Shown piece by piece: positions 184 to 13,792 of a stretch of DNA of 64,000 nt (its first letter is position 1; the number at the start of each line of letters is the position of its first letter). This DNA comes from Segatella copri (GTDB taxonomy: Bacteria > Bacteroidota > Bacteroidia > Bacteroidales > Bacteroidaceae), in contig NZ_JAPDVG010000001.1 of the NCBI RefSeq assembly GCF_026015625.1, positions 248,001 through 312,000 of the forward strand, in the 5' to 3' direction. The notes beneath the pieces are model-generated. The model was given only the letters and a program-made list of their open reading frames with translations, had not been told where the DNA came from and did no database searches. A program made the position numbers and the translations under genes.

Positions 184-1173
184 ATGAAGATAAATAAAAT
201 ATTAGTGGCAGCAGCAATGGCTCTTGGATTCGTTAGCTGCTCAAGTGAAGGAGAATTGACTCCTGCTATAGATACATTGAAAGATACTCCGTTGCAGATT
301 AATGCATCTGTAGCAGGTATGAAAACACGTGCAGGATATGATGCTAATAGCGTACCTAACCAATTCTATCTTAAGATAAGACAGGGGCTTAAAGAGCAAA
401 AAAAATATTGGTATGATGTTGTCATGAAACTGGAAAATGGCCAATGGGTTGCTTATAATGCTGAAAACAAGACTGAAACGGTTCAATTACTTCGAGCAGG
501 ATATAATATAACTTGCGATCTCTATTCTACTACATTTCCTGGATACGAACTGGATGAAAGCGGAAACCAGATTAAATCTATAGAATTAGAGGTTCTGGCA
601 GACCAAAGCTTAGATGCCAGTGTCAAGGCAAGTGACCATTTGTATGCCTTAAACAAAGATAAAAATATGGAGGTTAAGGCTATTGAGTTAAAATTGGAAC
701 ATCAAATGTCAAAACTCTCACTAGAGTTGACTTTGGGTAGTCAATATGAAGAGGAGCAAAATCCTGTCAAAGACATGCAGATTGTAGGAACTAAGAGAAA
801 AGTAAAATGGTCAGATGGACATTCGTTTGTTAGTGATGACGCTTCTGCAGAGCCAATTATACCATATCTTGCGGGTTACACCAAGCCTACGGATGATTCC
901 CCTAAAGCGAAAGTTTGTTATGAGGTGATTTTAGCTCCACAGACTGTTGAGGCAGGAAACTTTGGTGTTGAATTTAATGTTTTAGGCAAAACTTATCGTT
1001 GGTACAGTGATGCTGCTGTTAAATTGAAAGAAGGCACTCAATACACATTGCAACTGACGGCAGGAAAAGATCAGGCTAATCTTGTAGAAGTTACATCTAA
1101 GGCTTGGAATACAAAACACAAAAACGAAAATAATGAAAAAGTGGACAACAAGTCGGATATAGAAACCTTTTAA
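184..1173 (+). CDS. Fimbrillin-family lipoprotein
   Basis: This 329-residue protein begins with a lipoprotein signal peptide: K-rich start, hydrophobic run, then lipobox GFVSC with the acylated Cys near residue 19. The mature part has the layout of Bacteroidota fimbrillins: polar linker, then alternating beta strands, with a threonine/arginine site (KTRAG, about residues 47-51) where Rgp-type processing occurs in some relatives. It is predicted to be exported and lipidated, then either assembled into a surface fimbria or left as a minor tip or anchor subunit. It starts 32 bp after the preceding stop and its own stop overlaps the next frame, which indicates one transcript. The subfamily cannot be fixed by eye. 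Confidence 0.72.
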   Translation: MKINKILVAAAMALGFVSCSSEGELTPAIDTLKDTPLQINASVAGMKTRAGYDANSVPNQFYLKIRQGLKEQKKYWYDVVMKLENGQWVAYNAENKTETVQLLRAGYNITCDLYSTTFPGYELDESGNQIKSIELEVLADQSLDASVKASDHLYALNKDKNMEVKAIELKLEHQMSKLSLELTLGSQYEEEQNPVKDMQIVGTKRKVKWSDGHSFVSDDASAEPIIPYLAGYTKPTDDSPKAKVCYEVILAPQTVEAGNFGVEFNVLGKTYRWYSDAAVKLKEGTQYTLQLTAGKDQANLVEVTSKAWNTKHKNENNEKVDNKSDIETF

Positions 1174-1184
1174 TGACTAGAAGT

Positions 1185-2699
1185 ATGAAAATTATAAATA
1201 AATACATATTGGTGGCTGCAGCTTCTCTATCTGTTGTTGCGTGTAGCCAAGATGATGGCTTGTCAAATAGCTATCTTAAAGATTCGGATGCTGTTCACAT
1301 TACAGCCCAAGTGGGAAGTAATGAAGCTACAGGTGGCTTTATTTCTCGCTCCAATCCATTGGGTAGTGAAGTTGAGCAAGCAAAGTTTAATGAAGGCGAT
1401 GCCATTTCTGTTGTTGCAGATAACCAAGATGCCGTTATTTATTCTTATGATGGTACCAGTTGGAGTCCAAAAGAAAAAGGTCTGCACTTAGTTTGGAATA
1501 GTAACGAGATGAATTTTAAGGCTTTTTATCCTGCAAATGCTAATGATGCTTCTTTTACAGACTTCACACTACCTACTGCATACAATAGCTTAGCGGACTT
1601 GGCTTTGGGTGATTATATGACATTTAGTGGTAGCCGCAAGCGTAGTTCCGATAATGATGGCGTGAACTTGGAAATGGAGCGCAAAATGGTGCGCATCGTT
1701 GTCGGCCTAAGAGATGTTAATGTTTGGGGAGACACGATGGATGAAGGGTTGGAACTGACAGAAGTAACAATCCATCCTAATACAAATGGATATTCCAATG
1801 GTGAAGTTGTTCCCGCTGATTCAAAAGATGTTAGTGTGAAAGCGTACAAACACACTGATGGTAAGTTTTATGCGCTTATTACTCCGACAATGCCAGTGTC
1901 GGATATGTATAATTATTTGCTTTTCATGACAGTAAAGGTGGCAAAGCCTGATGGCACAGGTGAGCAAGAATTTGAAGTTAGGCGCATTCCACATACAGGT
2001 ACAGAAGCTGGTAGTAGCTACGAGTACTTTTTAAAGATTGGTAAGGACGAACTTGTTGTAGATAAAATTACAGTATCTGATTGGAAAACTGGTGAAGCGA
2101 TTCCTGGTGGCGAGGCTTTAGACGATGTGTCGTTTGTTAAAAAGACGATTGCAGATGCTTTGGCTGCAAATAAAACTGATATAGAATTAACATTGAATAG
2201 TTACAACAATAGTAGCGAGCTATCTGCTGCGATTAGAGATGCTCTAAAAACAACCACTGATGGAAGTGTCAATTTAACACTGAAGGGTATTACTTCCTTC
2301 CAAACAGGCTTAGATAATTTTATTAATCATTGTAATAAGTTGAAGTCAATTACTTTACCAGATGCTACAGAATTTAGCATGTGGGCATTTGCATCTTGTG
2401 ATAAGTTGGAGGAAATATATGCTCCAAACGTATCAGTGCTAGGATGTCAAGTTTTTAAGGGTTGTAAAGGATTGAAGAAGATTGCATTGGGAGCTCTTAC
2501 AAATGTGAATTTGGGGGATGATAGCGAAGCCTTTTTTGGTTTGAATACAGAAAATGTTGATTTGGTCTTGTCTGAATCGCAGAAACAGATGGAGAATCGA
2601 AATAATTGGTACTCTACCGAGGAGGATTATAAGTCTACTGATGATTATACGAAAAATATTTTTTTGGGAAGACAATTCAAGTCTGTGACTTTACAGTAA
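1185..2699 (+). CDS. Fimbrillin-like lipoprotein with leucine-rich-repeat tail
   Basis: The protein has about 504 residues from the ATG at 1185. An earlier in-frame ATG at 1173 overlaps the previous stop, but the signal peptide MKIINKYILVAAASLSVVAC starts at 1185 and mirrors the neighbouring gene. The lipobox is SVVAC. Residues about 30-320 look like a fimbrillin fold and end in a VDKITVSDWKTGE strand. The last 150 residues change character: ITLPDATEFSMWAFASCDKL and CQVFKGCKGLKKIAL are BspA-type (LRR_5) leucine-rich repeats. The combination suggests a surface pilin-like adhesin with a binding tip. The function is inferred from architecture only. Confidence 0.68.
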   Translation: MKIINKYILVAAASLSVVACSQDDGLSNSYLKDSDAVHITAQVGSNEATGGFISRSNPLGSEVEQAKFNEGDAISVVADNQDAVIYSYDGTSWSPKEKGLHLVWNSNEMNFKAFYPANANDASFTDFTLPTAYNSLADLALGDYMTFSGSRKRSSDNDGVNLEMERKMVRIVVGLRDVNVWGDTMDEGLELTEVTIHPNTNGYSNGEVVPADSKDVSVKAYKHTDGKFYALITPTMPVSDMYNYLLFMTVKVAKPDGTGEQEFEVRRIPHTGTEAGSSYEYFLKIGKDELVVDKITVSDWKTGEAIPGGEALDDVSFVKKTIADALAANKTDIELTLNSYNNSSELSAAIRDALKTTTDGSVNLTLKGITSFQTGLDNFINHCNKLKSITLPDATEFSMWAFASCDKLEEIYAPNVSVLGCQVFKGCKGLKKIALGALTNVNLGDDSEAFFGLNTENVDLVLSESQKQMENRNNWYSTEEDYKSTDDYTKNIFLGRQFKSVTLQ

Positions 2700-2730
2700 G
2701 TTAAAACGAGATTTACATATCGACTCCTAA

Positions 2731-2757
2731 GCTGGGCAGGAGTATAAGTTGCCCAGC
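2731..2757. terminator. Hairpin after fimbrillin operon
   Basis: The arms GCTGGGCA (2731-2738) and TGCCCAGC (2750-2757) pair perfectly, 32 bp after the last fimbrillin stop. No U-run follows, so intrinsic termination is uncertain; it may instead be a 3' stabilising hairpin. Confidence 0.4.
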
Positions 2758-2791
2758 AAACATATCCCCCCGCACCTCACGGGAAACGACA

Positions 2792-2832
2792 AGGGTCTAT
2801 ATGCCACGATGAACAGGTGGCATATAGGCCCT
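2792..2832 (+). repeat. 41-bp palindromic repeat, copy A
   Basis: The left arm AGGGTCTATATGCCAC and the right arm GTGGCATATAGGCCCT flank a 9-base loop (GATGAACAG), with one G-T wobble. Like copies C-F it is followed by a conserved stretch beginning ATTATATGGTGATATTCG. It lies at the 3' end of the decayed Rpn gene. There is no T-run on either side, so it is not a canonical terminator. Confidence 0.9.
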
Positions 2833-2856
2833 AAATTATATGGTGATATTCGTAAT

Positions 2857-3165
2857 CTACATCTCCGCTTTCAGCAGCTTTATCTCCTCTGCTGTCAGCC
2901 CCGTCATATCCATGATAGACGCTTCATCCATACCCTTTGCCAGCATCTTTCTGGCAATCTCAAGGCTTCGCAGGTTCATGCCTTCAGCTCTGCCTTCTTC
3001 TCTACCTTTCTCCATACCTTTTTCCATACCTTCCTTCATACCAATTTCCTTACCCTCAGCTATACCTTCACGCTTGGCGGTGTCAACGAAATTCTTGATG
3101 TCGCGATATGCCATCTTGCTGGTCTCAAAGCTGATATATCTTTCTTCTACCTGCTTCATAATCAT
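2857..3165 (-). pseudogene. Rpn-type nuclease, internally deleted remnant
   Basis: The remaining frame keeps the first 12 residues of the intact paralogues (MIMKQVEERYIS), then jumps directly to the C-terminal part starting FETSKMAYRD. Comparison with the copies at 6747-7670 and 9277-10188 shows loss of roughly 210 residues, including the whole PD-(D/E)XK core. The reading frame is preserved, so a protein of about 102 residues could still be made: a GxxxG-like charged repeat (KEGMEKGMEKGREEG) plus the conserved helical tail. The start is taken at 3165 because an upstream extension relies on a non-ATG codon inside the promoter -7 box. It is probably a non-nucleolytic relic; a regulatory role for the short product cannot be excluded. 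Confidence 0.75.
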
Positions 3166-3277
3166 CTGTATTAAAAATCCATGCCGCAAAGATACGGTTT
3201 TATTTTCATATCTGCAAGAGATTTCTGGGAAAAGTTTATGAAAAAGTAAGAGATTGCGTTTCTTATGTGACAGGACA

Positions 3278-3318
3278 AGGGTCTATATGCCACGATGAAC
3301 AGGTGGCGTATAGACCCT
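3278..3318 (+). repeat. 41-bp palindromic repeat, copy B
   Basis: The arms AGGGTCTATATGCCAC and GTGGCGTATAGACCCT flank the loop GATGAACAG. This copy lies upstream of the Rpn remnant. Unlike the others, it lacks the conserved ATTATATGGTGATATTCG stretch on its right side. Confidence 0.9.
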
Positions 3319-3399
3319 TCATTTGTGGCATGGAATGGCTATCTTTTATCTTTTAAAATACGGGAATCCAAATTTTCCCGAAACTTTTCTCCCGTTTTC

Positions 3400-3430
3400 T
3401 TTGCACTTTCAAAATAAAAGCTTATCTTTG
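3400..3430 (+). promoter_or_regulatory. Promoter for small gene pair
   Basis: A TTTG at 3400-3403 and a TATCTTTG at 3423-3430 are 19 bp apart, an exact match to the Bacteroidota -33/-7 consensus. Transcription would start near 3436, about 30 nt before the ATG at 3467. Confidence 0.7.
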
Positions 3431-3466
3431 CAACCAACAAGAAGTAGAACTTTAAAATGAATAAGT

Positions 3467-3610
3467 ATGGCTTTAAAAATTAAAACTCGTGAAGAAGCAA
3501 TTGCTGTATTACGAGATATGGTTAGACGTAAAAAAGAAATGGAAGCAAAGGCTCAAATAGACTTTGCTAAAGCACGAGAGGAGGCTGCAGACTGTTATGC
3601 ATGCCTTTAA
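3467..3610 (+). CDS. Small helical protein, 47 aa
   Basis: This short frame starts 37 bp after a consensus promoter and encodes a charged helical peptide (MALKIKTREEAIAVLRDMVR then a K/E/A-rich stretch). I do not recognise a family. It overlaps the next gene by 14 bp if that gene starts at 3597, which suggests translational coupling. The pair lies between palindromes B and C and runs opposite to the Rpn and ATPase genes. The layout (short basic/acidic helix plus a second small protein) resembles toxin-antitoxin operons, but nothing in the sequence proves that. Confidence 0.5.
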   Translation: MALKIKTREEAIAVLRDMVRRKKEMEAKAQIDFAKAREEAADCYACL

Positions 3611-3857
3611 CTTAACTCGCCTCAATTTTCATTCTCCTTATAAGGTCTGGATAGATAATGGATCATATAAGTTCTTAACAGATTATGGTGTTCAGTATCG
3701 AATAGAATATGTAGAAAACAATAATATTTGGGAGGATGAAAAAGCGTATGAATTCGGCATTCTCAATGAAAACAAGAAGAATTCTCCTAACGATTCTAAA
3801 GTTAAAGCAACTATACAATGTATTATAGAGGAATTCTTTCTTACAAATCTCGAATAA
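3597..3857 (+). CDS. Small protein, possibly truncated DUF6169-like
   Basis: From the ATG at 3597 the product is 86 residues (a start at 3564 would add 11). The pattern FNLTRLNFHS..YKFLTDYGVQYRIEY and the end KVKATIQCIIEEFF resemble the N-terminal part of DUF6169 proteins as I remember them. Those usually continue beyond the IIEEFF-type helix, so this copy may be cut short. The stop lies 31 bp before palindrome C. The function of the family is unknown to me. Assignment to DUF6169 is from memory and needs a profile search. Confidence 0.5.
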   Translation: MHAFNLTRLNFHSPYKVWIDNGSYKFLTDYGVQYRIEYVENNNIWEDEKAYEFGILNENKKNSPNDSKVKATIQCIIEEFFLTNLE

Positions 3858-3888
3858 TATAGTAAATCTGCAATTAACTTGGTTGGCA

Positions 3889-3929
3889 AGGGTCTATATG
3901 CCACGATGAAAAGGTGGCATATAGACCCT
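3889..3929 (+). repeat. 41-bp palindromic repeat, copy C
   Basis: The arms AGGGTCTATATGCCAC and GTGGCATATAGACCCT are perfectly complementary around the loop GATGAAAAG. The conserved ATTATATGGTGATATTCG tail follows, then 3' sequence of the first ATPase gene interrupted by the IS. Confidence 0.9.
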
Positions 3930-3978
3930 AAATTATATGGTGATATTCGTAATCTACCTGGCATCAAACCAAAGTAGT

Positions 3979-3987
3979 CATTTTCAG
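3979..3987 (+). repeat. Left target-site duplication of IS256-family element
   Basis: The 9 bp CATTTTCAG occur here and again at 5354-5362, immediately outside the terminal inverted repeats. The uninterrupted paralogue near 7880 has the same bases once. IS256-family elements usually duplicate 8-9 bp. Confidence 0.8.
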
Positions 3988-4047
3988 AGAGTGTAAACTA
4001 AACTGTGTCAAGCTACAATAAAAGTAGTTTAACACAGTTTTTATATT

Positions 4048-5253
4048 ATGGACAACTTAGAAATTGATTACAAGAAAGCAGCTCAGCAGTTGCGTAGTGG
4101 TGAAGCCTTATTTGGCAAGGACGGAGCATTAGCTCCATTGTTAGAGCGTATTCTCAACTCAGCTCTCGAAGGTGAGATGGACGCTCATTTAAGTGAAGAG
4201 GAACGCTCTTCCGGCAACCGTCGTAATGGTAAGATGAGTAAGAAGGTTCAAACAAAATATGGTGAGGTCACTATAGAGACTCCTCGTGACCGAGACGGAA
4301 CTTTCCAACCTGAGACCGTAAAGAAGCGTGAGACTATTCTTGCCAATGGCATGGCAGACCAGATTATTGAGATGTACGCCATGGGCACCAGCACACGTGA
4401 CATCAGCAGCTACTTTGAGCGTGAGTTCAACACAACTCTATCAGCCGATACTATCAGCTCTATAACAGACCGTGTATTACCCGAAATCACCGCCTGGAAG
4501 TCTCGCATGCTCGATCCTGTATATGCCATTTGCTGGCTTGATGCTATCCATTATAAGGTAAAGGATGAGAATGGCAGAGCTGTCACACGAGCCATTTACA
4601 ACATTCTTGGTATCAACAAGGAAGGCCAAAAAGAACTGTTAGGTATGTATGTGTCTAAGAGTGAAGGAGCTAACTTCTGGCTAGAAGTTCTTACGGATCT
4701 TCAGAACCGTGGTGTTCGAGACCTCTTGATTTGTTGTATTGATGGTCTCAAAGGCTTCCCAGATGCCATCCAAAGCGTATTTCCTGAGAGTTCTGTGCAG
4801 CTCTGTATTGTCCATCAGATACGCAATTCTATCAAGTATGTTGGCAGTAAGCATCAAAAGGAGTTTATCAAGGATTTAAGAACAGTATATGGTGCAGTAA
4901 ACAAAGACTCCGCTGCTGCTAATTTAGACCTGTTAGAGTCTAAGTGGGGAGAGATGTACCCAATTGTCATCAAGTCATGGCGTGACAATTGGGAACGTCT
5001 GACAGAGTATTTCCAATATACTCCAGCCATCCGTAAACTCATTTATACGACCAATACGGTTGAGGGGTATCACAGACAGGTAAGAAAGGTCACAAAGACT
5101 AAAGGGGTCTTTCCTACGGATAATTCTTTGGAGAAGCTTGTGTACTTAGCTTACCGCAACATCCGTAAGAAATGGACTATGCCACTGGCAAATTGGGGAC
5201 AACTTTCTCAACAATTGGCAATAAAATTTGGAGATAGATTTAAAATTATGTAA
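4048..5253 (+). CDS. IS256-family (Mutator-type) transposase
   Basis: This 401-residue protein has the usual size and motifs of IS256/MULE transposases. The catalytic DDE residues are likely D165 (WLDAIHYK), D232 (CCIDGLKGF) and E339 (TNTVEGYHRQ), with the C-x2-H signature CIVH at 253-256 between the second D and the E. The N-terminal region EGEMDAHLSEEE..NRRNGK is typical of the family. It would cut and rejoin the element ends through the terminal inverted repeats. The frame is intact, so the element may be active. The start ATG lies about 60 bp inside the left end. Confidence 0.95.
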   Translation: MDNLEIDYKKAAQQLRSGEALFGKDGALAPLLERILNSALEGEMDAHLSEEERSSGNRRNGKMSKKVQTKYGEVTIETPRDRDGTFQPETVKKRETILANGMADQIIEMYAMGTSTRDISSYFEREFNTTLSADTISSITDRVLPEITAWKSRMLDPVYAICWLDAIHYKVKDENGRAVTRAIYNILGINKEGQKELLGMYVSKSEGANFWLEVLTDLQNRGVRDLLICCIDGLKGFPDAIQSVFPESSVQLCIVHQIRNSIKYVGSKHQKEFIKDLRTVYGAVNKDSAAANLDLLESKWGEMYPIVIKSWRDNWERLTEYFQYTPAIRKLIYTTNTVEGYHRQVRKVTKTKGVFPTDNSLEKLVYLAYRNIRKKWTMPLANWGQLSQQLAIKFGDRFKIM

Positions 5254-5272
5254 CTTTGCAGCCGAAAAGGCT

Positions 5273-5302
5273 TCCCTGCTGGGGGCATGCCCCCAGCAGG
5301 GA
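5273..5302. terminator. 30-bp perfect palindrome inside the IS
   Basis: TCCCTGCTGGGGGCA and its exact complement form a GC-rich hairpin 20 bp after the transposase stop. It may end transposase transcription or block read-through from outside. No long T-run follows, so its termination strength is uncertain. Confidence 0.6.
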
Positions 5303-5338
5303 GTGGGAATGAAAGTTAAGAACAAGCCTTGACACAGT

Positions 5339-6556
5339 TTAAATTACACCCCCCATTTTCAGAAAATCTCGCAGATGAATGTGCTTAATGCCATCAATAT
5401 TGGTTTGACCATAAAGCCTATCCATAGAAATCACGTATTTGGGATGACTGTCTTTTATCAATTTCAAATTGCCGAATTCACGCTCTACCGTTTCCTCAGA
5501 AGCCAGCAGATAGGTAACTTGCACATACGCCACACTATCCGCTTTCTCGGCAACAAAATCAATCTCAGCCTTATACATCTGACCAACATATACTTTATAC
5601 CCCATCCTGCACAAATGGATATATACAGCGTTCTCCATCACCTTTTCGATATCAAAACGCCTGTTGCCACCTATAATATGATTCCTGATTCCCAGGTCTT
5701 CGAAATAGAACTTGTCGCCTAACTCGAAAAGTCGCTTGCCATGAATGTCGTATCTGTTAACTCGATCGATAATAAAAGCATTGCTTAAATACTCCAAATA
5801 CGTGAGAATCATCTTGGCAGACGTTTCGGTGTTCTGGCTTTTCAGAAATTTTACAATACTCGTTGCTGAGAATTGTTTACCGATATTATCGCTCACAAAC
5901 TTCAGCAGCGTTCGCAACAATGGTATGTTTCTGATGTTTTCTCGCTCTATGATATCACGAAGTACTATCGTATTATACACATTGTCAAGATAATCTTCTA
6001 CCAAATCCGTATTTTCCAATCCTAAACTGCGCAACTGAGGGAGCCCGCCATACTGCAGATACAGGTTCAAGGAAGCATCATCATCCTTCAGTTCATGGAA
6101 CGTCAGGAACTCTTCATAGCAGAGTCCTCTAATGCGATAAGCAATATATCTGCCTCTCAGGCGAGTTGCCAGTTCGCCCGAAAGCATCTTGGCGTTGCTG
6201 CCGGTAATCATAATCTGGCAGGTATCATCCGATTGGATACTGAGGAGTGCTTTCTCGAAATCAGAAATCTCCTGCACCTCATCGATAAACAGATAGTTTT
6301 CCTTACCCTCAACGATGTTGGCTGCTACATAAGCCTCCAGATCCTGATAGTTGGCTATCATATCAAATGAGGTTTTCTCCTTATCTATATAGATAACGTG
6401 ATTTTCTTCATTCTCAGCGATGTGATTATAAATTCGCCGCATCACACAACTCTTGCCGACACGCCTCTGGCCCGTCAATGCAATCATCATTCCACGTCCT
6501 AACATGCGTTCGATACGGTTGGAATACCCTAGTCTTTCTAATATTTTTTGTTTCAT
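5339..6556 (-). CDS. AAA+ ATPase with DUF4143 domain, copy 1 (3' end altered by IS)
   Basis: About 405 residues from the ATG at 6556, the start shared with copy 2. Residues about 24-35 form Walker A (TGQRRVGKS). Walker B is LFIDEVQEI, and a sensor-like ITGSNAKML follows. The C-terminal third is the DUF4143 region, with a nuclease-like EIDFVAE..AYVQV signature. Proteins of this class (AAA_14/DUF4143) are common and poorly understood in Bacteroidota. The IS at 3988-5353 replaced the last four residues: this copy ends KMGGVI, with its stop codon supplied by the IS end, whereas copy 2 ends KMTTLV. Otherwise I count four substitutions between the copies. It is likely still functional. Confidence 0.85.
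   Translation of the reverse strand: MKQKILERLGYSNRIERMLGRGMMIALTGQRRVGKSCVMRRIYNHIAENEENHVIYIDKEKTSFDMIANYQDLEAYVAANIVEGKENYLFIDEVQEISDFEKALLSIQSDDTCQIMITGSNAKMLSGELATRLRGRYIAYRIRGLCYEEFLTFHELKDDDASLNLYLQYGGLPQLRSLGLENTDLVEDYLDNVYNTIVLRDIIERENIRNIPLLRTLLKFVSDNIGKQFSATSIVKFLKSQNTETSAKMILTYLEYLSNAFIIDRVNRYDIHGKRLFELGDKFYFEDLGIRNHIIGGNRRFDIEKVMENAVYIHLCRMGYKVYVGQMYKAEIDFVAEKADSVAYVQVTYLLASEETVEREFGNLKLIKDSHPKYVISMDRLYGQTNIDGIKHIHLRDFLKMGGVI
5354..5362 (+). repeat. Right target-site duplication of IS256-family element
   Basis: A second copy of CATTTTCAG immediately follows the right inverted repeat and restores the coding sequence of ATPase copy 1. Confidence 0.8.
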
Positions 6557-6681
6557 ACGAGTAAAACTTTTCGCAAAGATGCTCTTTTTGTTTCGTATAA
6601 GTAACAAAAACGATAGATTTTTTGTTTTTATTACTTATAATTAACAGGTTTGGTACACATTGCACCTCACGGGAAACGACA

Positions 6682-6722
6682 AGGGTCTATATGCCACGAT
6701 GAACAGATGGCGTATAGACCCT
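6682..6722 (+). repeat. 41-bp palindromic repeat, copy D
   Basis: The arms AGGGTCTATATGCCAC and ATGGCGTATAGACCCT flank the loop GATGAACAG. It is preceded by GCACCTCACGGGAAACGACA, also present before copy A and nearly so before copy F, and followed by the conserved ATTATATGGTGATATTCG tail. It lies between the Rpn copy 1 stop and the ATPase copy 1 start. Confidence 0.9.
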
Positions 6723-6746
6723 TGATTATATGGTGATATTCGTAAT

Positions 6747-7670
6747 CTACATCTCCGCTTTCAGCAGCTTTATCTCCTCTGCCGTCAGCCCCGTCATATC
6801 CATGATAGACGCTTCATCCATACCCTTTGCCAGCATCTTTCTGGCAATCTCAAGGCTTCGCTGGTTCATGCCTTCTTCTATGCCTTCAGCTCTGCCTTTT
6901 TCCATGCCTTTCGCCATGCCTATTTCTATACCTTCACGCTTAGCGGTGTCTACGGAATTCTTGATGTCGCGATATGCCATCTTGCTTGTCTCGTACTCCC
7001 TCATTTCCTGCGGTGTAAACTTGGCTATTTCGGCTTCCTCAAAGAGACGGTCGAAGACTTTATCGCACAGCTCTTTAGGGCGCTGGGTAAGTTTATAGAG
7101 GTTCTTCAGTGCATAGAGCCACTTCTCGTAGAGCGTATCCAGTTCTTCCAGGGTTTTGTTGAACTTGGAAATCTCTACATAGATATATTCGAGTTTGTCG
7201 TAAAATACTTTGTGGGTAGCAGTGTCGCACAACTGTACATGATGGCGGATTTTCTCCTTGTCGAATGCATCCTCGTTCATGCTGAAGTTGAGCAGGGCTA
7301 CGGTATAGATATGATTGAGTTTGAAATCCCACTCATTCCCCTTGGGCGCCTGTTCTCGGATAGGGAAGGTGGAGTAGAAGAGGGCGCGATCCTTGAAATA
7401 CGTCTGGTAGGCATTCTGCATTTCTACGATGAACTTCTCGCCGTTTTCGCCCTCACAATATACATCAAAGATGGCTCTGCGGTCGGTATAGACATCTCCT
7501 ACGTGTTCTGGATTCAGATACGACACGTCCTTCACAACCTGTCTGCCATTAAACAAGCTGTTGAGGAAGCAAATGAGCAAATCCTTGTTCATCGCTGTTC
7601 CAAAAATTCGCTTGAAACCGAAGTCGGTCAGCAAGCTGATATATCTTTCTTCTACCTGCTTCATAATCAT
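6747..7670 (-). CDS. Rpn-family PD-(D/E)XK nuclease / putative transposase, copy 1
   Basis: About 307 residues from the ATG at 7670. A longer frame exists, but it would start with TTG inside the -7 promoter box. The fold is the Rpn/PDDEXK_2 class: conserved LLTDFGFKRIFG at the N-terminus, and a catalytic pattern with D69 (AIFDVY) and E83-x-Q85 (IVEMQ). Characterised E. coli Rpn proteins are DNA endonucleases that stimulate RecA-independent recombination. The C-terminal tail carries a variable GMxKG-type repeat (GIEIGMAKGMEKGRAEGIEE) and ends in a short helical motif shared by all three copies. A TAACTTTG -7 element lies at 7692-7699. Confidence 0.88.
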   Translation of the reverse strand: MIMKQVEERYISLLTDFGFKRIFGTAMNKDLLICFLNSLFNGRQVVKDVSYLNPEHVGDVYTDRRAIFDVYCEGENGEKFIVEMQNAYQTYFKDRALFYSTFPIREQAPKGNEWDFKLNHIYTVALLNFSMNEDAFDKEKIRHHVQLCDTATHKVFYDKLEYIYVEISKFNKTLEELDTLYEKWLYALKNLYKLTQRPKELCDKVFDRLFEEAEIAKFTPQEMREYETSKMAYRDIKNSVDTAKREGIEIGMAKGMEKGRAEGIEEGMNQRSLEIARKMLAKGMDEASIMDMTGLTAEEIKLLKAEM

Positions 7671-7691
7671 CTGTATTAAAAATCCATGCCG

Positions 7692-7699
7692 CAAAGTTA
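7692..7699 (-). promoter_or_regulatory. -7 element of Rpn copy 1
   Basis: The bottom strand reads TAACTTTG 22 bp before the ATG. The equivalent box is TATCTTTG for the remnant (3187-3194) and TAACTTTG for copy 2 (10208-10215). Confidence 0.55.
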
Positions 7700-7760
7700 C
7701 GACTTTATTTTCAAACCCGCAAGAGATTTTAGGGAAAAGTTGCTGAAAAAGTAAGAGATT

Positions 7761-7794
7761 GTTGAATGTTGAGTGTTGAATGTTGAGTGTTGAA
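7761..7794. repeat. 14-bp tandem repeat at module edge
   Basis: GTTGAATGTTGAGT occurs twice and continues for six more bases directly before palindrome E. Related GAATGTTGAG and AATGTTGAGTGTTGAATG motifs occur at the equivalent edge of the second module (10276-10311). This may mark the recombination boundary of the duplicated unit. Confidence 0.7.
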
Positions 7795-7834
7795 GGGTCT
7801 ATATGCCACGATGAAAAGGTGGCGTATAGACCCT
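7794..7834 (+). repeat. 41-bp palindromic repeat, copy E
   Basis: The arms AGGGTCTATATGCCAC and GTGGCGTATAGACCCT flank the loop GATGAAAAG, the same loop as copy C. Both C and E lie at the 3' end of an ATPase copy, whereas the GATGAACAG loop in A, D and F lies at the 3' end of an Rpn copy. Confidence 0.9.
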
Positions 7835-7868
7835 TGATTATATGGTGATATTCATAATCTACCTGGCA

Positions 7869-9086
7869 TCAAACCAAAGTAGTCATTTTCAGAAAATCTC
7901 GCAGATGAATGTGCTTAATGCCATCAATATTGGTTTGACTGTAAAGCCTATCCATAGAAATCACGTATTTGGGATGACTGTCTTTTATCAATTTCAAATT
8001 GCCGAATTCACGCTCTACCGTTTCCTCAGAAGCCAGCAGATAGGTAACTTGCACATACGCCACACTATCCGCTTTCTCGGCAACAAAATCAATCTCAGCC
8101 TTATACATCTGACCAACATATACTTTATACCCCATCCTGCACAAATGGATATATACAGCGTTTTCCATCACCTTTTCGATATCAAAACGCCTGTTGCCAC
8201 CTATAATATGATTCCTGATTCCCAGGTCTTCGAAATAGAACTTGTCGCCTAACTCGAAAAGTCGCTTGCCATGAATGTCGTATCTGTTAACTCGATCGAT
8301 AATAAAAGCATTGCTTAAATACTCCAAATACGTGAGAATCATCTTGGCAGACGTTTCGGTGTTCTGGCTTTTCAGAAATTTTACAATACTCGTTGCTGAG
8401 AATTGTTTACCGATATTATCGCTCACAAACTTCAGCAGCGTTCGCAACAATGGTATGTTTCTGATGTTTTCTCGCTCTATGATATCACGAAGTACTATCG
8501 TATTATACACATTGTCAAGATAATCTTCTACCAAATCCGTATTTTCCAATCCAAAACTGCGCAACTGAGGGAGCCCGCCATACTGCAGATACAGGTTCAA
8601 GGAAGCATCATCATCCTTCAGTTCATGGAACGTCAGGAACTCTTCATAGCAGAGTCCTCTAATGCGATAAGCAATATATCTGCCTCTCAGGCGAGTTGCC
8701 AGTTCGCCCGAAAGCATTTTGGCGTTGCTGCCGGTAATCATAATCTGGCAGGTATCATCCGATTGGATACTGAGGAGTGCTTTCTCGAAATCAGAAATCT
8801 CCTGCACCTCATCAATAAACAGATAGTTTTCCTTACCCTCAACGATGTTGGCTGCTACATAAGCCTCCAGATCCTGATAGTTGGCTATCATATCAAATGA
8901 GGTTTTCTCCTTATCTATATAGATAACGTGATTTTCTTCATTCTCAGCGATTTGATTATAAATTCGCCGCATCACACAACTCTTGCCGACACGCCTCTGG
9001 CCCGTCAATGCAATCATCATTCCACGTCCAAACATGCGTTCGATACGATTGGAATACCCTAGTCTTTCTAATATTTTTTGTTTCAT
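7869..9086 (-). CDS. AAA+ ATPase with DUF4143 domain, copy 2
   Basis: This is the intact paralogue of the ATPase at 5339-6556, 405 residues from the ATG at 9086. Walker A (TGQRRVGKS), Walker B (LFIDEVQEI), the sensor motif ITGSNAKML and the C-terminal DUF4143/nuclease-like region are all present. It ends in KMTTLV rather than the IS-derived tail. Only four internal substitutions separate the two copies (for example RMFGRG versus RMLGRG), which indicates a recent duplication or gene conversion. Its promoter has a consensus TATCTTTG -7 element (9104-9111), while copy 1 has CATCTTTG. The role is unknown; such ATPases are proposed to act in DNA transactions or defence. Confidence 0.88.
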   Translation of the reverse strand: MKQKILERLGYSNRIERMFGRGMMIALTGQRRVGKSCVMRRIYNQIAENEENHVIYIDKEKTSFDMIANYQDLEAYVAANIVEGKENYLFIDEVQEISDFEKALLSIQSDDTCQIMITGSNAKMLSGELATRLRGRYIAYRIRGLCYEEFLTFHELKDDDASLNLYLQYGGLPQLRSFGLENTDLVEDYLDNVYNTIVLRDIIERENIRNIPLLRTLLKFVSDNIGKQFSATSIVKFLKSQNTETSAKMILTYLEYLSNAFIIDRVNRYDIHGKRLFELGDKFYFEDLGIRNHIIGGNRRFDIEKVMENAVYIHLCRMGYKVYVGQMYKAEIDFVAEKADSVAYVQVTYLLASEETVEREFGNLKLIKDSHPKYVISMDRLYSQTNIDGIKHIHLRDFLKMTTLV

Positions 9087-9103
9087 ACGAGTAAAACTAC
9101 TCA

Positions 9104-9111
9104 CAAAGATA
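9104..9111 (-). promoter_or_regulatory. -7 element of ATPase copy 2
   Basis: The bottom strand reads TATCTTTG 17 bp before the ATG. The homologous box of copy 1 (6574-6581) reads CATCTTTG, a change of the conserved first T. Confidence 0.5.
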
Positions 9112-9211
9112 CTCTTTTTGTTTCACATAAGTAACAAAAACGATAGATTTTTTGTTTTTATTACTTATAATTAACAGGTTTGGTACACATTGCGCCTCAC
9201 GGGAAGCGACA

Positions 9212-9252
9212 AGGGTCTATATGCCACGATGAACAGATGGCGTATAGACCCT
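9212..9252 (+). repeat. 41-bp palindromic repeat, copy F
   Basis: The arms AGGGTCTATATGCCAC and ATGGCGTATAGACCCT flank the loop GATGAACAG, identical to copy D. It lies 3' of Rpn copy 2 and 5' of ATPase copy 2. Copies E and F are 1,418 bp apart, the same as C to D without the IS. Confidence 0.9.
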
Positions 9253-9276
9253 TGATTATATGGTGATATTCGTAAT

Positions 9277-10188
9277 CTACATCTCCGCTTTCAGCAGCTT
9301 TATCTCCTCTGCCGTCAGCCCCGTCATATCCATGATAGACGCTTCATCCATACCCTTTGCCAGCATCTTTCTGGCAATCTCAAGGCTTCGCAGGTTCATG
9401 CCTTCAGCTCTGCCTTCTTCTCTGCCTTGCTTCATGCCTATTTCTATACCTTCACGCTTAGCAGTGTCTACGGAATTCTTGATGTCGCGATATGCCATCT
9501 TGCTGGTCTCGTACTCCCTCATTTCCTGCGGAGTAAACTTGGCTATCTCGGCTTCCTCAAAGAGACGGTCGAAGACTTTATCGCACAGTTCTTTAGGGCG
9601 CTGGGTAAGCTTATAGAGATTCTTCAGTGCATAGAGCCACTTCTCGTAGAGTGTATCCAATTCTTCCAGGGATTTGTTGAACTTGGAAATCTCTACATAG
9701 ATATATTCTAGTTTGTCGTAAAATACTTTATGGGTAGCTGTGTCGCACAACTGCACATGATGGCGGATTTTCTCCTTGTCGAATGCGTCCTCGTTCATGC
9801 TGAAGTTGAGCAGGGCTACGGTATAGACATGATTGAGCTTGAAATCCCATTCATTCCCCTTTGGTGCCTGTTCACGGATAGGGAAGGTTGAGTAGAAAAG
9901 GGCACGATCCTTGAAATACGTCTGGTAGGCATTCTGCATTTCTACGATGAACTTCTCGCCGTTTTCGCCCTCACAATATACATCAAAGATGGCTCTGCGG
10001 TCGGTATATACATCTCCCACATGCTCCGGGTTCAGATACGACACGTCCTTCACAACCTGTTTGCCATTAAACAAGCTGTTGAGAAAGCAAATGAGCAAAT
10101 CCTTGTTCATCGCTGTTCCAAAAATTCGCTTGAAACCGAAGTCGGTCAACAAGCTGATGTATCTTTCTTCTACCTGCTTCATAATCAT
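9277..10188 (-). CDS. Rpn-family PD-(D/E)XK nuclease / putative transposase, copy 2
   Basis: A 303-residue paralogue of the copy at 6747-7670, with the same N-terminal core and catalytic D69 and E83-x-Q85. I see only three substitutions before the C-terminal variable segment. That segment differs: GIEIGMKQGREEGRAEGMNL here, against a longer GMAKGMEKG version in copy 1 and a still longer one in the remnant. The final 35 residues (LEIARKMLAKGMDEASIMDM and following) are shared by all. The nuclease is predicted to cut DNA and promote recombination. No palindrome copy is present upstream of this gene, so it is the outer end of the array. Confidence 0.88.
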   Translation of the reverse strand: MIMKQVEERYISLLTDFGFKRIFGTAMNKDLLICFLNSLFNGKQVVKDVSYLNPEHVGDVYTDRRAIFDVYCEGENGEKFIVEMQNAYQTYFKDRALFYSTFPIREQAPKGNEWDFKLNHVYTVALLNFSMNEDAFDKEKIRHHVQLCDTATHKVFYDKLEYIYVEISKFNKSLEELDTLYEKWLYALKNLYKLTQRPKELCDKVFDRLFEEAEIAKFTPQEMREYETSKMAYRDIKNSVDTAKREGIEIGMKQGREEGRAEGMNLRSLEIARKMLAKGMDEASIMDMTGLTAEEIKLLKAEM

Positions 10189-10331
10189 CTATATTAAAAT
10201 GCTAGCGCAAAGTTACGACTTTATTTTCAAACCCGCAAGAGTTTTCTAGGAAAAGTTTCGGAAAAAGTTAGAGAATGGTGAATGTTGAGAGGTAAATGTT
10301 GAGTGTTGAATGAAAGAAATATGACGACAAA

Positions 10332-10363
10332 GAAAAAGGGCGCATCGGATTGGGATGCGCCCT
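10332..10363 (-). terminator. Intrinsic terminator after amidase
   Basis: AGGGCGCATC (10337-10346) pairs with GATGCGCCCT (10354-10363). On the bottom strand the hairpin is followed by TTTTTC. It lies 60 bp beyond the amidase stop and fits as the end of the HU/smalltalk/amidase operon. The rest of the 10189-10423 gap holds only the module edge and a weak AGAGGG/CCCTCT hairpin at 10382-10411. Confidence 0.75.
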
Positions 10364-10423
10364 AACTTGTTAAATAAAATCAGAGGGATTCTGCTCTTGA
10401 AAAACCCTCTTAATGGAAGAGAA

Positions 10424-10873
10424 TCAGGAAGCATCCAGGAGGTACTGGAGCTTCGTGGCATCAAAACACGGACAGGCTTTCTGAACGCCAGGCAAATCGC
10501 GATGCCCCAGGATGGTACGGATGCCCGGGAAACGGTGGTGAAGATCCTGAATCAGATGCTTCATCGACTCCTTCTGCTTAGGAGTGCGGGTGTCGCTGAT
10601 GCAGCCCGATGGCGAAAGACCACCCTCGTAACAGATGCCTATGCTGTGCGCATTGTAACCGAGGGCATGAGAGCCCATACGCTCTACCGGGCGACAGGCA
10701 TGAACCACTCCATCCAGCGTGATGTAGAAATGGTAGCCGATGTCAGTCCAGCCGTTGTTATGAACATGGTCGTAGCGCAGCATCTTCATCGTATAACGGT
10801 GATCGCAGCGGCTACCGCTGCAATGCACAACTATCATATCGATATCTCTCATAGGCATCCTTCTAAAGTCCAC
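10424..10873 (-). CDS. N-acetylmuramoyl-L-alanine amidase (Amidase_2 / T7-lysozyme type)
   Basis: This 149-residue single-domain protein carries the zinc-amidase signatures: an N-terminal H (IVVHCSGS, about residue 17), central NNGWTDIGYHFYI, and a C-terminal HRDLPGVQKACPCFDA with the second His and the Cys ligand. It cleaves the MurNAc-L-Ala bond of peptidoglycan. No signal peptide is visible, so export or release by lysis would be needed. The ATG at 10873 overlaps the smalltalk stop by 11 bp; a start at MRDIDM further in is also possible. In Bacteroidota this amidase regularly follows HU-like and smalltalk genes and is often annotated as phage-derived. Confidence 0.88.
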   Translation of the reverse strand: MDFRRMPMRDIDMIVVHCSGSRCDHRYTMKMLRYDHVHNNGWTDIGYHFYITLDGVVHACRPVERMGSHALGYNAHSIGICYEGGLSPSGCISDTRTPKQKESMKHLIQDLHHRFPGIRTILGHRDLPGVQKACPCFDATKLQYLLDAS

Positions 10874-11650: not shown

Positions 11651-11758
11651 CAACATCGGCGGTGCCCCACTTGTCCACTTTGGTACGATAAGTACCAGTT
11701 GTGCTCTATTTGGCTCAATTATGTATACTTTTGCACGCAAGCGTATGCTGCAGAATAT

Positions 11759-11868
11759 TCAAGTGGCTCAGTTAACTTACTCAAGTGGCTCAGTTAACTT
11801 ACTCAAGTGGCTCAATCAGCTTACTCAAGTGGCTTTGTCAGATTACTCAAGTGGCTCAATCAGCGAGT
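11759..11868. repeat. 22-bp direct repeats (iteron-like), 5 units
   Basis: Five consecutive 22-bp units start TCAAGTGGCT: 11759, 11781, 11803, 11825 and 11847. The first two are identical and the others drift in the second half. Unit length and direct orientation match iterons of Rep_3-type replicons (commonly 19-22 bp). A Rep_3 gene lies 0.8 kb to the right. Confidence 0.85.
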
Positions 11869-12110
11869 CCAGCCGTCTGAGTAAGCGAATCCAGCCGTCT
11901 GCGTAACCCAGTGCAGCCATATCCTTAACCCAGCTCAGCCACATCAGTTGGTAAACGGAAGAACATCATTTGTTTACCTCATTTGAGTGCTCAATAACTA
12001 TCAGGGCGAATTAACCTTTTTTGATGACTACCAGAGCCAATAATAGGTACCATCAGGGCGAATAATATGCCTTCAGAGATGCCCGAATGACTACCAGGGC
12101 GAATCCTAAA
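11869..12110. repeat. Degenerate continuation of the 22-bp array
   Basis: After the first array come units starting CCAGCCGTCTG at 11869 and 11891 (22 bp apart), then GCAGCC and TCAGCC variants. Further on, five CAGGGCGAAT-like words start at 12002, 12032, 12054, 12074 and 12095, spaced 20-30 bp. The period is kept approximately while the sequence class changes. Confidence 0.6.
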
Positions 12111-12670: not shown

Positions 12671-13792
12671 ATGGAACAACGAAATCAACAGCCTCCGGGC
12701 GGACAGCAGTCCTTCCCTCAGACAAATCAACAAGAGAAACAACTGATAACCATCCTTGGCGTACAGGGATTGTCTTACCAGAACTATTCTGTGGTAGAAC
12801 TCAAAATCGTTCTACAGATTATCAAGCATGCCCAGAAAGCCATCTTGGGCTATGTTATCCCTTATCACGTAACTCCCCAGACCTTTAGTAATTTCACGGT
12901 AGAACAGAGAGCTGCAGGCCACACGGATGTCACCATGAAACTGTCTGAGTTTTCTTATGGAGCTCCCCATTATGCGCAATTGCGCGATGCCATCCAGCGT
13001 ATAGAATCCAAGCCCATCCAGCTGCCGTTCAAGCAGGGCGACCAGACCTACTACCGGAAATTTTCATGCCTGTTCAAGAGTGAGATATACCAAGACCGGC
13101 ACAAGAACTGGTTGGTAAAATTCCGCTTCGACAACAACGTGATGCGGTTTTTCTACAATTACGACAAGGGAGTCAGCCGTATCGACCTCAATGCCATCAA
13201 CCAATGCCGCAGTGCATCGAGCATCAAGTTATATCTCATCATGAACTGCTGGGCTGTAAAGGGATTCACCATCAGCAAAACGGCGCATATCCAGCAACTG
13301 ATGCATGGCAAGGAAGATTACTACAAGACCTGGTCGGAACTGGACAGAAAATGTCTGGCTTTCGCCTGCAAAGACCTCAAGCGCCTTTACCGGAACCACG
13401 TCATAGACCAGTATCTTACCTATAAGCCTTTCTTTCTGGAAGAGGGTGAAAAAGTGAAGCATCACCTGCCCGAGCACATCACCTTTACCCTGCACGACCG
13501 TCGCACTTCTGGCGAAACTGCGGAGGGTGCAGAAGTGAGCAGCGAACTGAGAGGGCAGCGGAGCAAACTGAAACTCCGGCTGCAATGCAATTATGATGTG
13601 AGCGAGAAGAAGGCTGAGCAGTTGAGCGGCTATCTCAGGTTAGATATGATTGGCGACCTAGAAGACTTCTTCCTGCGAAAGGATTATTACATAGCCAACT
13701 GCAGGCGTTCGAACAAGAAGATGAACACGGGTGGCTATATGACCACAGCCATGGTAGGTTTCTTTAAGGATCATGGTGTAGAAGGATTGTAA
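12671..13792 (+). CDS. Rep_3 / RepB-family replication initiator
   Basis: The 373-residue protein has the winged-helix initiator layout of Rep_3 proteins: a first WH domain with LSEFSYGAPHYAQLRDAIQR (about residues 95-120), FDNNVMRFFYNYDKGVSRID, then a second WH region with SSIKLYLIMNCWAVKGFTIS and KAFKDLKRLY-type helices (residues about 180-240). Such initiators bind directly repeated iterons and open an adjacent AT-rich origin. Here both features lie upstream. The first 25 residues are Gln/Pro-rich. It may mark an integrated plasmid or phage-like element, or a domesticated locus. Nothing else plasmid-like (partition, mobilisation) is visible. Confidence 0.82.
   Translation: MEQRNQQPPGGQQSFPQTNQQEKQLITILGVQGLSYQNYSVVELKIVLQIIKHAQKAILGYVIPYHVTPQTFSNFTVEQRAAGHTDVTMKLSEFSYGAPHYAQLRDAIQRIESKPIQLPFKQGDQTYYRKFSCLFKSEIYQDRHKNWLVKFRFDNNVMRFFYNYDKGVSRIDLNAINQCRSASSIKLYLIMNCWAVKGFTISKTAHIQQLMHGKEDYYKTWSELDRKCLAFACKDLKRLYRNHVIDQYLTYKPFFLEEGEKVKHHLPEHITFTLHDRRTSGETAEGAEVSSELRGQRSKLKLRLQCNYDVSEKKAEQLSGYLRLDMIGDLEDFFLRKDYYIANCRRSNKKMNTGGYMTTAMVGFFKDHGVEGL

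Follow-up and report, generated by a model that had tools for sequence, protein, structure and literature searches.

Why should one and the same palindrome stand between the genes of a short region of a gut bacterial genome, and always in one direction? The question is raised by DNA of Segatella copri (NCBI RefSeq assembly GCF_026015625.1, contig NZ_JAPDVG010000001.1, positions 248,001 to 312,000 of the forward strand); this whole stretch of 64,000 nucleotides (nt) is here called the window, and coordinates without a locus name are those of the window. Near its left end, genes for Rpn nucleases, AAA_14/DUF4143 ATPases and small proteins are set apart by six near-identical palindromes, in which a preliminary description made from the letters alone had seen folded attachment sites of a cassette array, with the Rpn nuclease as the enzyme that might act on them. 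We consider this region a likely array of mobile cassettes of small size, which are bounded by direct hairpins of 45 base pairs (bp) and exchanged by recombination at the hairpins, a cassette being one gene or a gene pair, mostly of toxin-antitoxin or phage-defence type. Comparison of genomes shows that the cassettes differ at one locus and turn up again elsewhere, other species included, either alone or together with an adjoining cassette, and that the breakpoints fall at the hairpins.

The array and its edges are made up as follows (aa, amino acids; ORF, open reading frame; IS, insertion sequence).

1173..2789, plus strand: fimbrillin-like gene and its 3' tail, left edge of the array (ORF 1173-2699, Mfa_like_1)
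2790..2834, plus strand: hairpin 1
2857..3189, minus strand: Rpn remnant, no PF12784 match, compared with 6747-7694
3276..3320, plus strand: hairpin 2, between diverging genes
3467..3857, plus strand: small gene pair (47-aa ORF 3467-3610; 97-aa ORF 3564-3857)
3887..3931, plus strand: hairpin 3
3991..5349, plus strand: IS256-family insertion sequence (transposase 4048-5253; terminal inverted repeats 3991-4012/5328-5349)
5339..6607, minus strand: AAA_14/DUF4143 ATPase copy 1, last codons altered by the IS
6680..6724, plus strand: hairpin 4
6747..7694, minus strand: Rpn nuclease (PDDEXK_2, PF12784; TIGR01784)
7792..7836, plus strand: hairpin 5, left edge of the recurring ATPase unit
7869..9104, minus strand: AAA_14/DUF4143 ATPase copy 2 (PADLOC PDC-S01, E 6.3e-137)
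9210..9254, plus strand: hairpin 6, right edge of the recurring ATPase unit
9277..10188, minus strand: second full-length Rpn gene, no hairpin on its 5' side
10291..10873, minus strand: right edge of the array, where synteny with genome G001 (locus L019) resumes at 10291; Amidase_2 gene 10424-10873

All six palindromes are present where the preliminary description had placed them (core starts 2793, 3279, 3890, 6683, 7795 and 9213), 100 dinucleotide shuffles gave no palindrome match, and judged by the loop all six point in a single direction, as had been said. The statement that a palindrome separates every gene stood for the six hairpins, but the last Rpn gene (9277-10188) lacks a hairpin on its 5' side and the IS256 transposase gene lies inside the unit 3890-6683.

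Hairpin-bounded units at one locus and at other places

Array content, which the preliminary description had proposed to compare between strains, does vary between genomes: one locus, formed by a fimbrillin-like operon, the array and the amidase gene, holds different units in the window, in G001 and in G043. G001 is the genome nearest to the window (58% of sampled words in common), and its L019 has the right flank of the window (97% identity over 1446 bp) and likewise the left tail, with hairpin, Rpn gene, hairpin, 83-aa gene and hairpin as content. L081 of G043 has its neighbours in the order of the window and contains Rpn, a DUF2442-like unit and the ATPase. Other contents were found at L171 of iAQ1173 (DUF6169 gene, Rpn and HigBA), L173 of iA622 (zeta-toxin unit), L178 of Leyella (Rpn remnant) and L179 (Rpn), all of them behind a complete or partial fimbrillin-like tail; these are not strict orthologues of the window locus because the right flank differs or is unestablished. 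The iA622 array links the fimbrillin side to a gene that in G001 adjoins another array (L022), and this junction is either a rearrangement at the hairpins or an assembly matter.

One unit recurs almost unchanged. The ATPase unit measures 1461-1463 bp from hairpin to hairpin and is 98.5-99.3% identical in the window (copy 2, 7793-9253), G043, G001 and G192, where it occupies three neighbourhoods: the array locus (two genomes), 2.80 Mb in G001 and contig C31 in G192. Compared with the window, the genes that adjoin it in G043 reach about 75% identity (535 and 545 bp); two stretches compared elsewhere between G043 and G001 gave 90% and 76%. In both G043 and G001 the homology of the unit ends left and right at the edges of the hairpins. 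The G192 copy is located at the end of a contig and is flanked by an Rpn unit on the side where the window has one too. Taken together, these comparisons show that hairpin-bounded units have been gained, lost and transferred, the breakpoints lying at the hairpins.

The same two genes enclose a hairpin-ATPase-hairpin block in G001, whose left edge retains a scrap of a DUF6169 unit, and a hairpin-free spacer of about 134 bp in G043 (L205). Such a hairpin-free orthologous site, like the single units at isolated places that have hairpins at both outer ends (L022, L023 and L176), would also fit a hairpin that is the end of a transposable element, either a miniature inverted-repeat transposable element (MITE)-like palindrome or a composite element, in which hairpin pairs carry what lies between. 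This explanation is improbable, since neighbours in an array share one hairpin, always in direct orientation, no target duplication is demonstrable, and the Y1 profile PF01797, which matched in 4 of 6 hairpin-bearing genomes (above cut-off in 3), was not found in G191 and G194, both of them drafts.

The hairpins keep one direction and the genes do not. Across 12 arrays, which have 34 hairpins in total, each of the 22 pairs of adjacent hairpins is in direct orientation (the L019 hairpin at 9184 was oriented by its loop), and of the 22 units bounded by a hairpin on both sides 14 have their genes in one direction relative to the hairpin and 8 in the other; in this count window unit 3 was scored by its ATPase and not by the IS, L081 was scored by its DUF2442-like gene, and bounded units of related genomes are not independent. 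We propose that a cassette would exit by recombination between two hairpins, as a circle or as a linear piece with one hairpin, and would enter at another hairpin, and the hairpins would therefore stay in one direction while the genes face either way. The hairpin behind fimbrillin-like operons may be a common docking site; a fimbrillin-like tail followed by a hairpin recurs in other genomes, including all 3 places found in one tail search. The cassette-array idea of the preliminary description is thus well supported by the two-sided bounding, the varying content and the near-identical unit elsewhere.

The cargo families are Rpn, ATPases of the PADLOC candidate types PDC-S01 and PDC-S27, HigB with a helix-turn-helix protein that has PD-Lambda-2-like scores, a zeta-type toxin gene with a 54-aa ORF, a DUF2442-like gene (23.2 bits, against a cut-off of 23.9), DUF6169, and a pair of 83/76 aa and 175 aa without firm family. 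Rpn genes have been assigned to toxin-antitoxin systems and phage defence (PMC10327210), and the cargo mostly fits one toxin-antitoxin or defence theme. It may even be that all of it is defence, the DUF2442-like gene, DUF6169 and the 83/76-aa and 175-aa pair included.

Within the window, the Rpn nuclease exceeded the profile cut-offs of PDDEXK_2 (242.1 bits, against 27.4) and TIGR01784 (105.2, against 52.1), and a PDB sequence search with Rpn and ATPase gave no match. Self-comparison showed that the two full-length Rpn units are 94% alike and the two ATPase units 98.8%, so that the 2530-bp period is not one simple tandem duplication. The IS256 copy is inserted in the 3' end of ATPase copy 1, and about 9 bp (CATTTTCAG) are repeated on both of its flanks. 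The 97-aa ORF 3564-3857 is a shortened copy of a DUF6169 protein that has 176 aa in L072. The first gene of the array (2857-3189) had been taken for an Rpn nuclease gene, which proved wrong: its first ~20 codons are fused in frame to the C-terminal antitoxin-like part and the nuclease domain is gone. By its position this predicted ORF may be called RpnS-like, following the usage in PMC10327210.

Further RpnS-like frames without most of the nuclease domain were seen at L178 1233-1562, L199 4220-4459 and L201 2523-2783. The window and Leyella remnants differ in where the fusion lies: in each, the initial ~20-25 codons run on in frame into the C-terminal region, a pattern that would arise if only the antitoxin portion had been retained, on two occasions. 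An apparent hybrid Rpn at L175 (between the hairpins at 1487 and 2555, reverse complement) joins, as judged by eye, the nuclease of one subfamily to a C-terminal part of another. At L081 9796-9963 there is a 55-aa ORF nearly equal to the small partner of the zeta-type gene in L173, with no toxin gene seen in the unit. To the right of hairpins in L171, L173 and L024, non-Rpn units start with about 60 bp that by eye resemble the Rpn 3' end, as if such units had replaced an Rpn gene. Outside the array, a 22-bp tandem repeat array (11734-11887) lies upstream of a replication-initiator (Rep3_N) gene (12671-13792).

The hairpin and its variants

With its outer pairs, each window hairpin has 45 bp and reads (C)AAGGGTCTATATGCCAC-loop-GTGGCGTATAGACCCTT(G). 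The aligned copies from the window and other genomes consist of AAGG and GTCTATATGCCAC, a 9-nt loop, and GTGGCGTATAGAC and CCTT, the loop being GATGAAMAG in most. In the window the loop GATGAAAAG is found in hairpins 3890 and 7795, each at an ATPase 3' end, and the loop GATGAACAG in hairpins 2793, 6683 and 9213, at Rpn 3' ends, and in 3279. The link between loop and gene drawn in the preliminary description holds there, but it fails elsewhere: the ATPase 3' hairpin of L023 carries GATGAACAG, the Rpn 3' hairpin of L081 (8344) carries GATGAAAAG, and no clear link of the loop variant to the left or right neighbour gene was seen by eye.

The strand on which the loop is read folds better than the other strand, with predicted energies of -30.0 versus -25.5 kcal/mol as RNA and -16.5 versus -14.4 kcal/mol as DNA for hairpin 4, and of -30.8 versus -24.6 and -16.3 versus -13.8 kcal/mol for hairpin 5. 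The difference is due to one T.G step, which is kept in 25 of 28 distinct rows. Hairpin direction had no pattern with local GC skew. Among the 4227 models of Rfam 15 the sole match was below threshold and inside the IS256 gene, with none to the hairpins, and no description of these hairpins was found in the open-licence literature.

A second palindrome, AAGGGTCTATACACC...GGTGTATAGACCCTT, has the outer arms of the main palindrome, an inner stem changed on both strands and a different loop. It occurs in two genomes, at L046 1232-1273 (G001) and at L071 2675-2716, and the L071 unit has the main palindrome at one end and the second palindrome at the other. The changed inner stem in L071 and L046 hints that the outer arms would be the recognised part.

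Simple repeats of the TGTTGAATGTTGAGTGTTGA type adjoin hairpins or array ends in L018, L019, L021 and the window (7750-7795 and 10270-10330).

Where the hairpins occur and what could move them

The exact pattern was found in 10 stretches, from Segatella copri (Indica, iA622 and iAQ1173), Leyella stercorea An906, Prevotella sp. 885 and an uncultured Prevotella metagenome-assembled genome. Allowing up to 3 mismatches, 2 of 100 relatives searched (60 of the genus and 40 others of the order) had the hairpin, namely G001 and G043; G191-G195, the genomes of the remaining exact-pattern contigs, were reached through the hairpin itself and are therefore not informative on its frequency, and several hairpin genomes are drafts with contigs that end in arrays. 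A pattern search of the whole G001 genome gave 10 hairpins at 7 places, none of them more than 900 bp away from a PF12784 or DUF4143 match. In a random control in G001, a mean of 0.6 of 13 points fell within 1600 bp of such a match (2000 trials), the 13 points being the 10 copies of the pattern search and three found otherwise. No hairpin was found in viral contigs, and neither the ATPase unit DNA in phages nor the array DNA in plasmids gave a match; ATPase relatives were found on 237 plasmids, all of them less than 60% identical.

Do the Rpn proteins, with or without the ATPase, recognise or cut the hairpins and shuffle the cassettes, as the preliminary description had imagined? An Rpn gene or remnant is present in the loci of 7 of 7 hairpin-bearing genomes examined and in the window (in G193 and G195 as remnants or partial ORFs only, below the Pfam cut-off), some non-Rpn units begin with the Rpn 3'-end scrap, and overproduced Rpn relatives raise RecA-independent recombination according to PMC5350276. 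Most Rpn genes, however, are hairpin-free. In G001 a hairpin is close to 5 of 12 Rpn matches and the other 7 have none within 8 kb, and a covariance model run on 58 further loci detected none; 39 of these loci have Rpn genes and come from other genomes within the genus, with some overlap between them, and the remaining 19 match the L023 query, 18 through its flanking gene. Many hairpins also bound units without an Rpn gene. Furthermore, no sequence specificity was seen for the characterised relative RpnA (PMC5350276), and Zhong et al. hold it highly unlikely that Rpn proteins are transposases (PMC10327210). On these grounds we reject Rpn as the shuffling enzyme in the main reading, a role that now seems very improbable.

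For the ATPase genes, a hairpin is close to 4 of 30 DUF4143 loci in G001, one of the 4 having been found by scanning those loci and 5 weaker matches having been left out of the count. With the covariance model one more copy, a diverged one, came to light at a DUF4143 gene (L046), and the copy of L244 was confirmed. Beside some Rpn genes of other genomes of the genus there are hairpins of other sequence, and no hairpin family common to these Rpn genes and hairpins was seen. Such hairpins at other Rpn loci include two look-alike pairs, L084/L195 and L086/L197. Near two Rpn loci of G120 there is a repeat of 115 nt that contains a strong hairpin (L193 3905-4019 and L194 5734-5848).

Several observations weigh against cassettes that are exchanged at the hairpins. 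Scatter of the palindrome beside unrelated genes, a possibility considered in the preliminary description, does not apply to G001, but a few lone copies are found elsewhere: in L177 (G192), L244 (G043) and L172 (G191) a hairpin follows a fimbrillin-like tail, and neither an Rpn nor a DUF4143 gene was noted next to this hairpin, the gene there in L172 being of the AAA-ATPase_like/PDDEXK_9 type. The ATPase and Rpn pair of G192 may have moved or stayed together, so that units may also travel or persist in pairs. No base-exact junction or empty site was found, the relatives at hand (L205 of G043; L176 and its G191 counterpart) being too diverged. The outer AAGG or CCTT is absent at some outer edges (L018, L019, L020, L021 and L176), and in the set of 42 sites the arms showed no excess of covariation over shuffles. 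No excision circle was seen. No recombinase tied to the arrays was found, by eye in the 64-kb window, with no genome-wide search made. The Rpn units are internally mosaic, and ordinary homologous recombination therefore also acts here. Finally, the hairpins of L172 and L176 (8848) lie about 8-14 bp behind a stop codon and have A and T tracts.

The last copies resemble terminators, and a terminator origin of the hairpin is possible. In the stronger form of this idea, the hairpins are terminators or insulators of selfish genes with which they spread, and the arrays grow by plain duplication. The stems are strong as RNA (-24.6 to -30.8 kcal/mol for two window copies, both strands), and L174 has A/T tracts too. 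Terminators do not usually share 45 near-identical bases, however, and none of the 6 window hairpins is followed by a T-run when either strand is read directly, which bears out the preliminary description on this point; a terminator scan also listed none at the 6 hairpins, but it allows loops of 3-8 only and is blind to a 9-nt loop. In addition, hairpins stand between diverging genes, where nothing ends (window 3276-3320 and L171). We regard this explanation as quite improbable, more so than a transposable-element end.

The serious rival to site-specific exchange is homologous recombination, in which the hairpins would be mere short repeats and the cassettes would be exchanged in a RecA-dependent manner after conjugation or other DNA entry. 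The near-identical hairpin of ~45 bp, with up to 50 bp of similar flank at many sites, is enough homology for rare events, and direct orientation is expected here too; the mosaic Rpn units and the window without a visible recombinase gene count in the same direction. On the other hand, it leaves unexplained why about seven gene types (Rpn, AAA ATPases, HigBA, zeta, DUF6169, DUF2442-like and one pair) are bounded by the same hairpin, why the repeat is palindromic, and why the two palindromes of the L071 unit are alike in their outer arms and different inside. Our preference, held with a little less than even confidence, is for a recombinase that would act in trans on the hairpin, and RecA-type recombination with the hairpins as short homology is nearly as likely, being a real possibility of perhaps one in three. 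A candidate enzyme is encoded by a tyrosine recombinase gene of iA622 (L177 1068-2363; PF00589, 65.4 bits; phage-type) about 750 bp from the lone hairpin. Rpn and the ATPase are best seen as cargo.

Comparison with known cassette and hairpin systems

The arrays resemble integron cassette arrays (attC sites and IntI) in their tandem small units, in their direct, foldable palindromic sites with a strand-asymmetric fold, and in a toxin-antitoxin and defence content that varies by genome; sedentary chromosomal integrons are rich in toxin-antitoxin cassettes. The attC core boxes, RYYYAAC and GTTRRRY, lie one at each end of the site when it is folded. Unlike in integrons, this pair of boxes was found at none of the 42 sites (within 40 nt, either strand; the left box at 0 and the right box at 3), the sites are nearly identical in sequence, and the genes face both directions. 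No IntI integrase gene was seen by eye among the window ORFs, and no genome-wide search was made.

The Xer (pdif) modules of Acinetobacter plasmids are likewise small gene units between short recombination sites, with an enzyme acting in trans. Their pdif sites alternate in direction, and the XerD-type half site is TTATGTTAAAT. The hairpins differ in that such a half site occurs at 1 of 42 sites (up to 2 mismatches, within 40 nt), all sites are direct and the stem is long.

Hairpin sites in one direction are also a feature of repetitive extragenic palindromes (REP) with their associated tyrosine transposases (RAYT) and of IS200/IS605. The hallmark of REP is a GTAG/GGAG foot 5' of the hairpin, unlike here, where this foot was found at 0 of 42 sites within 10 nt on the reading strand and at 0 of 42 within 14 nt on either strand. 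A Y1/RAYT transposase was rejected as the mobiliser, both on the 2 genomes without a Y1 match and because the copy in L024 has its own repeats. L024 5900-9900 holds a tandem duplication of an Rpn gene and, adjoining an Rpn gene and beside hairpins, this Y1 transposase gene, its repeats having been recognised by eye.

A separate class of cassettes is a tentative and rather doubtful idea: a recombinase distinct from both integron integrases and XerCD might recognise the outer arms of the folded AAGGGTCTATA...TATAGACCCTT hairpin, and the S. copri group would use it to exchange genes for toxin-antitoxin systems and phage defence, singly or in small numbers, with fimbrillin-like operons as the places behind which they dock. 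If true, a common human gut bacterium would have a defined transfer unit for its defence and toxin-antitoxin genes, and integron-like trading of cassettes could exist with a different site.

In gene content there is a likeness to the Rpn (RpnL/RpnS) genes of PMC10327210, which have PF12784/TIGR01784, a repeat-rich C-terminus, multiple copies and horizontal movement. Unlike the rpn genes as characterised in that paper, with no identifiable terminal repeats and with variable rather than fixed ends, some rpn genes here have their ends set by a hairpin.

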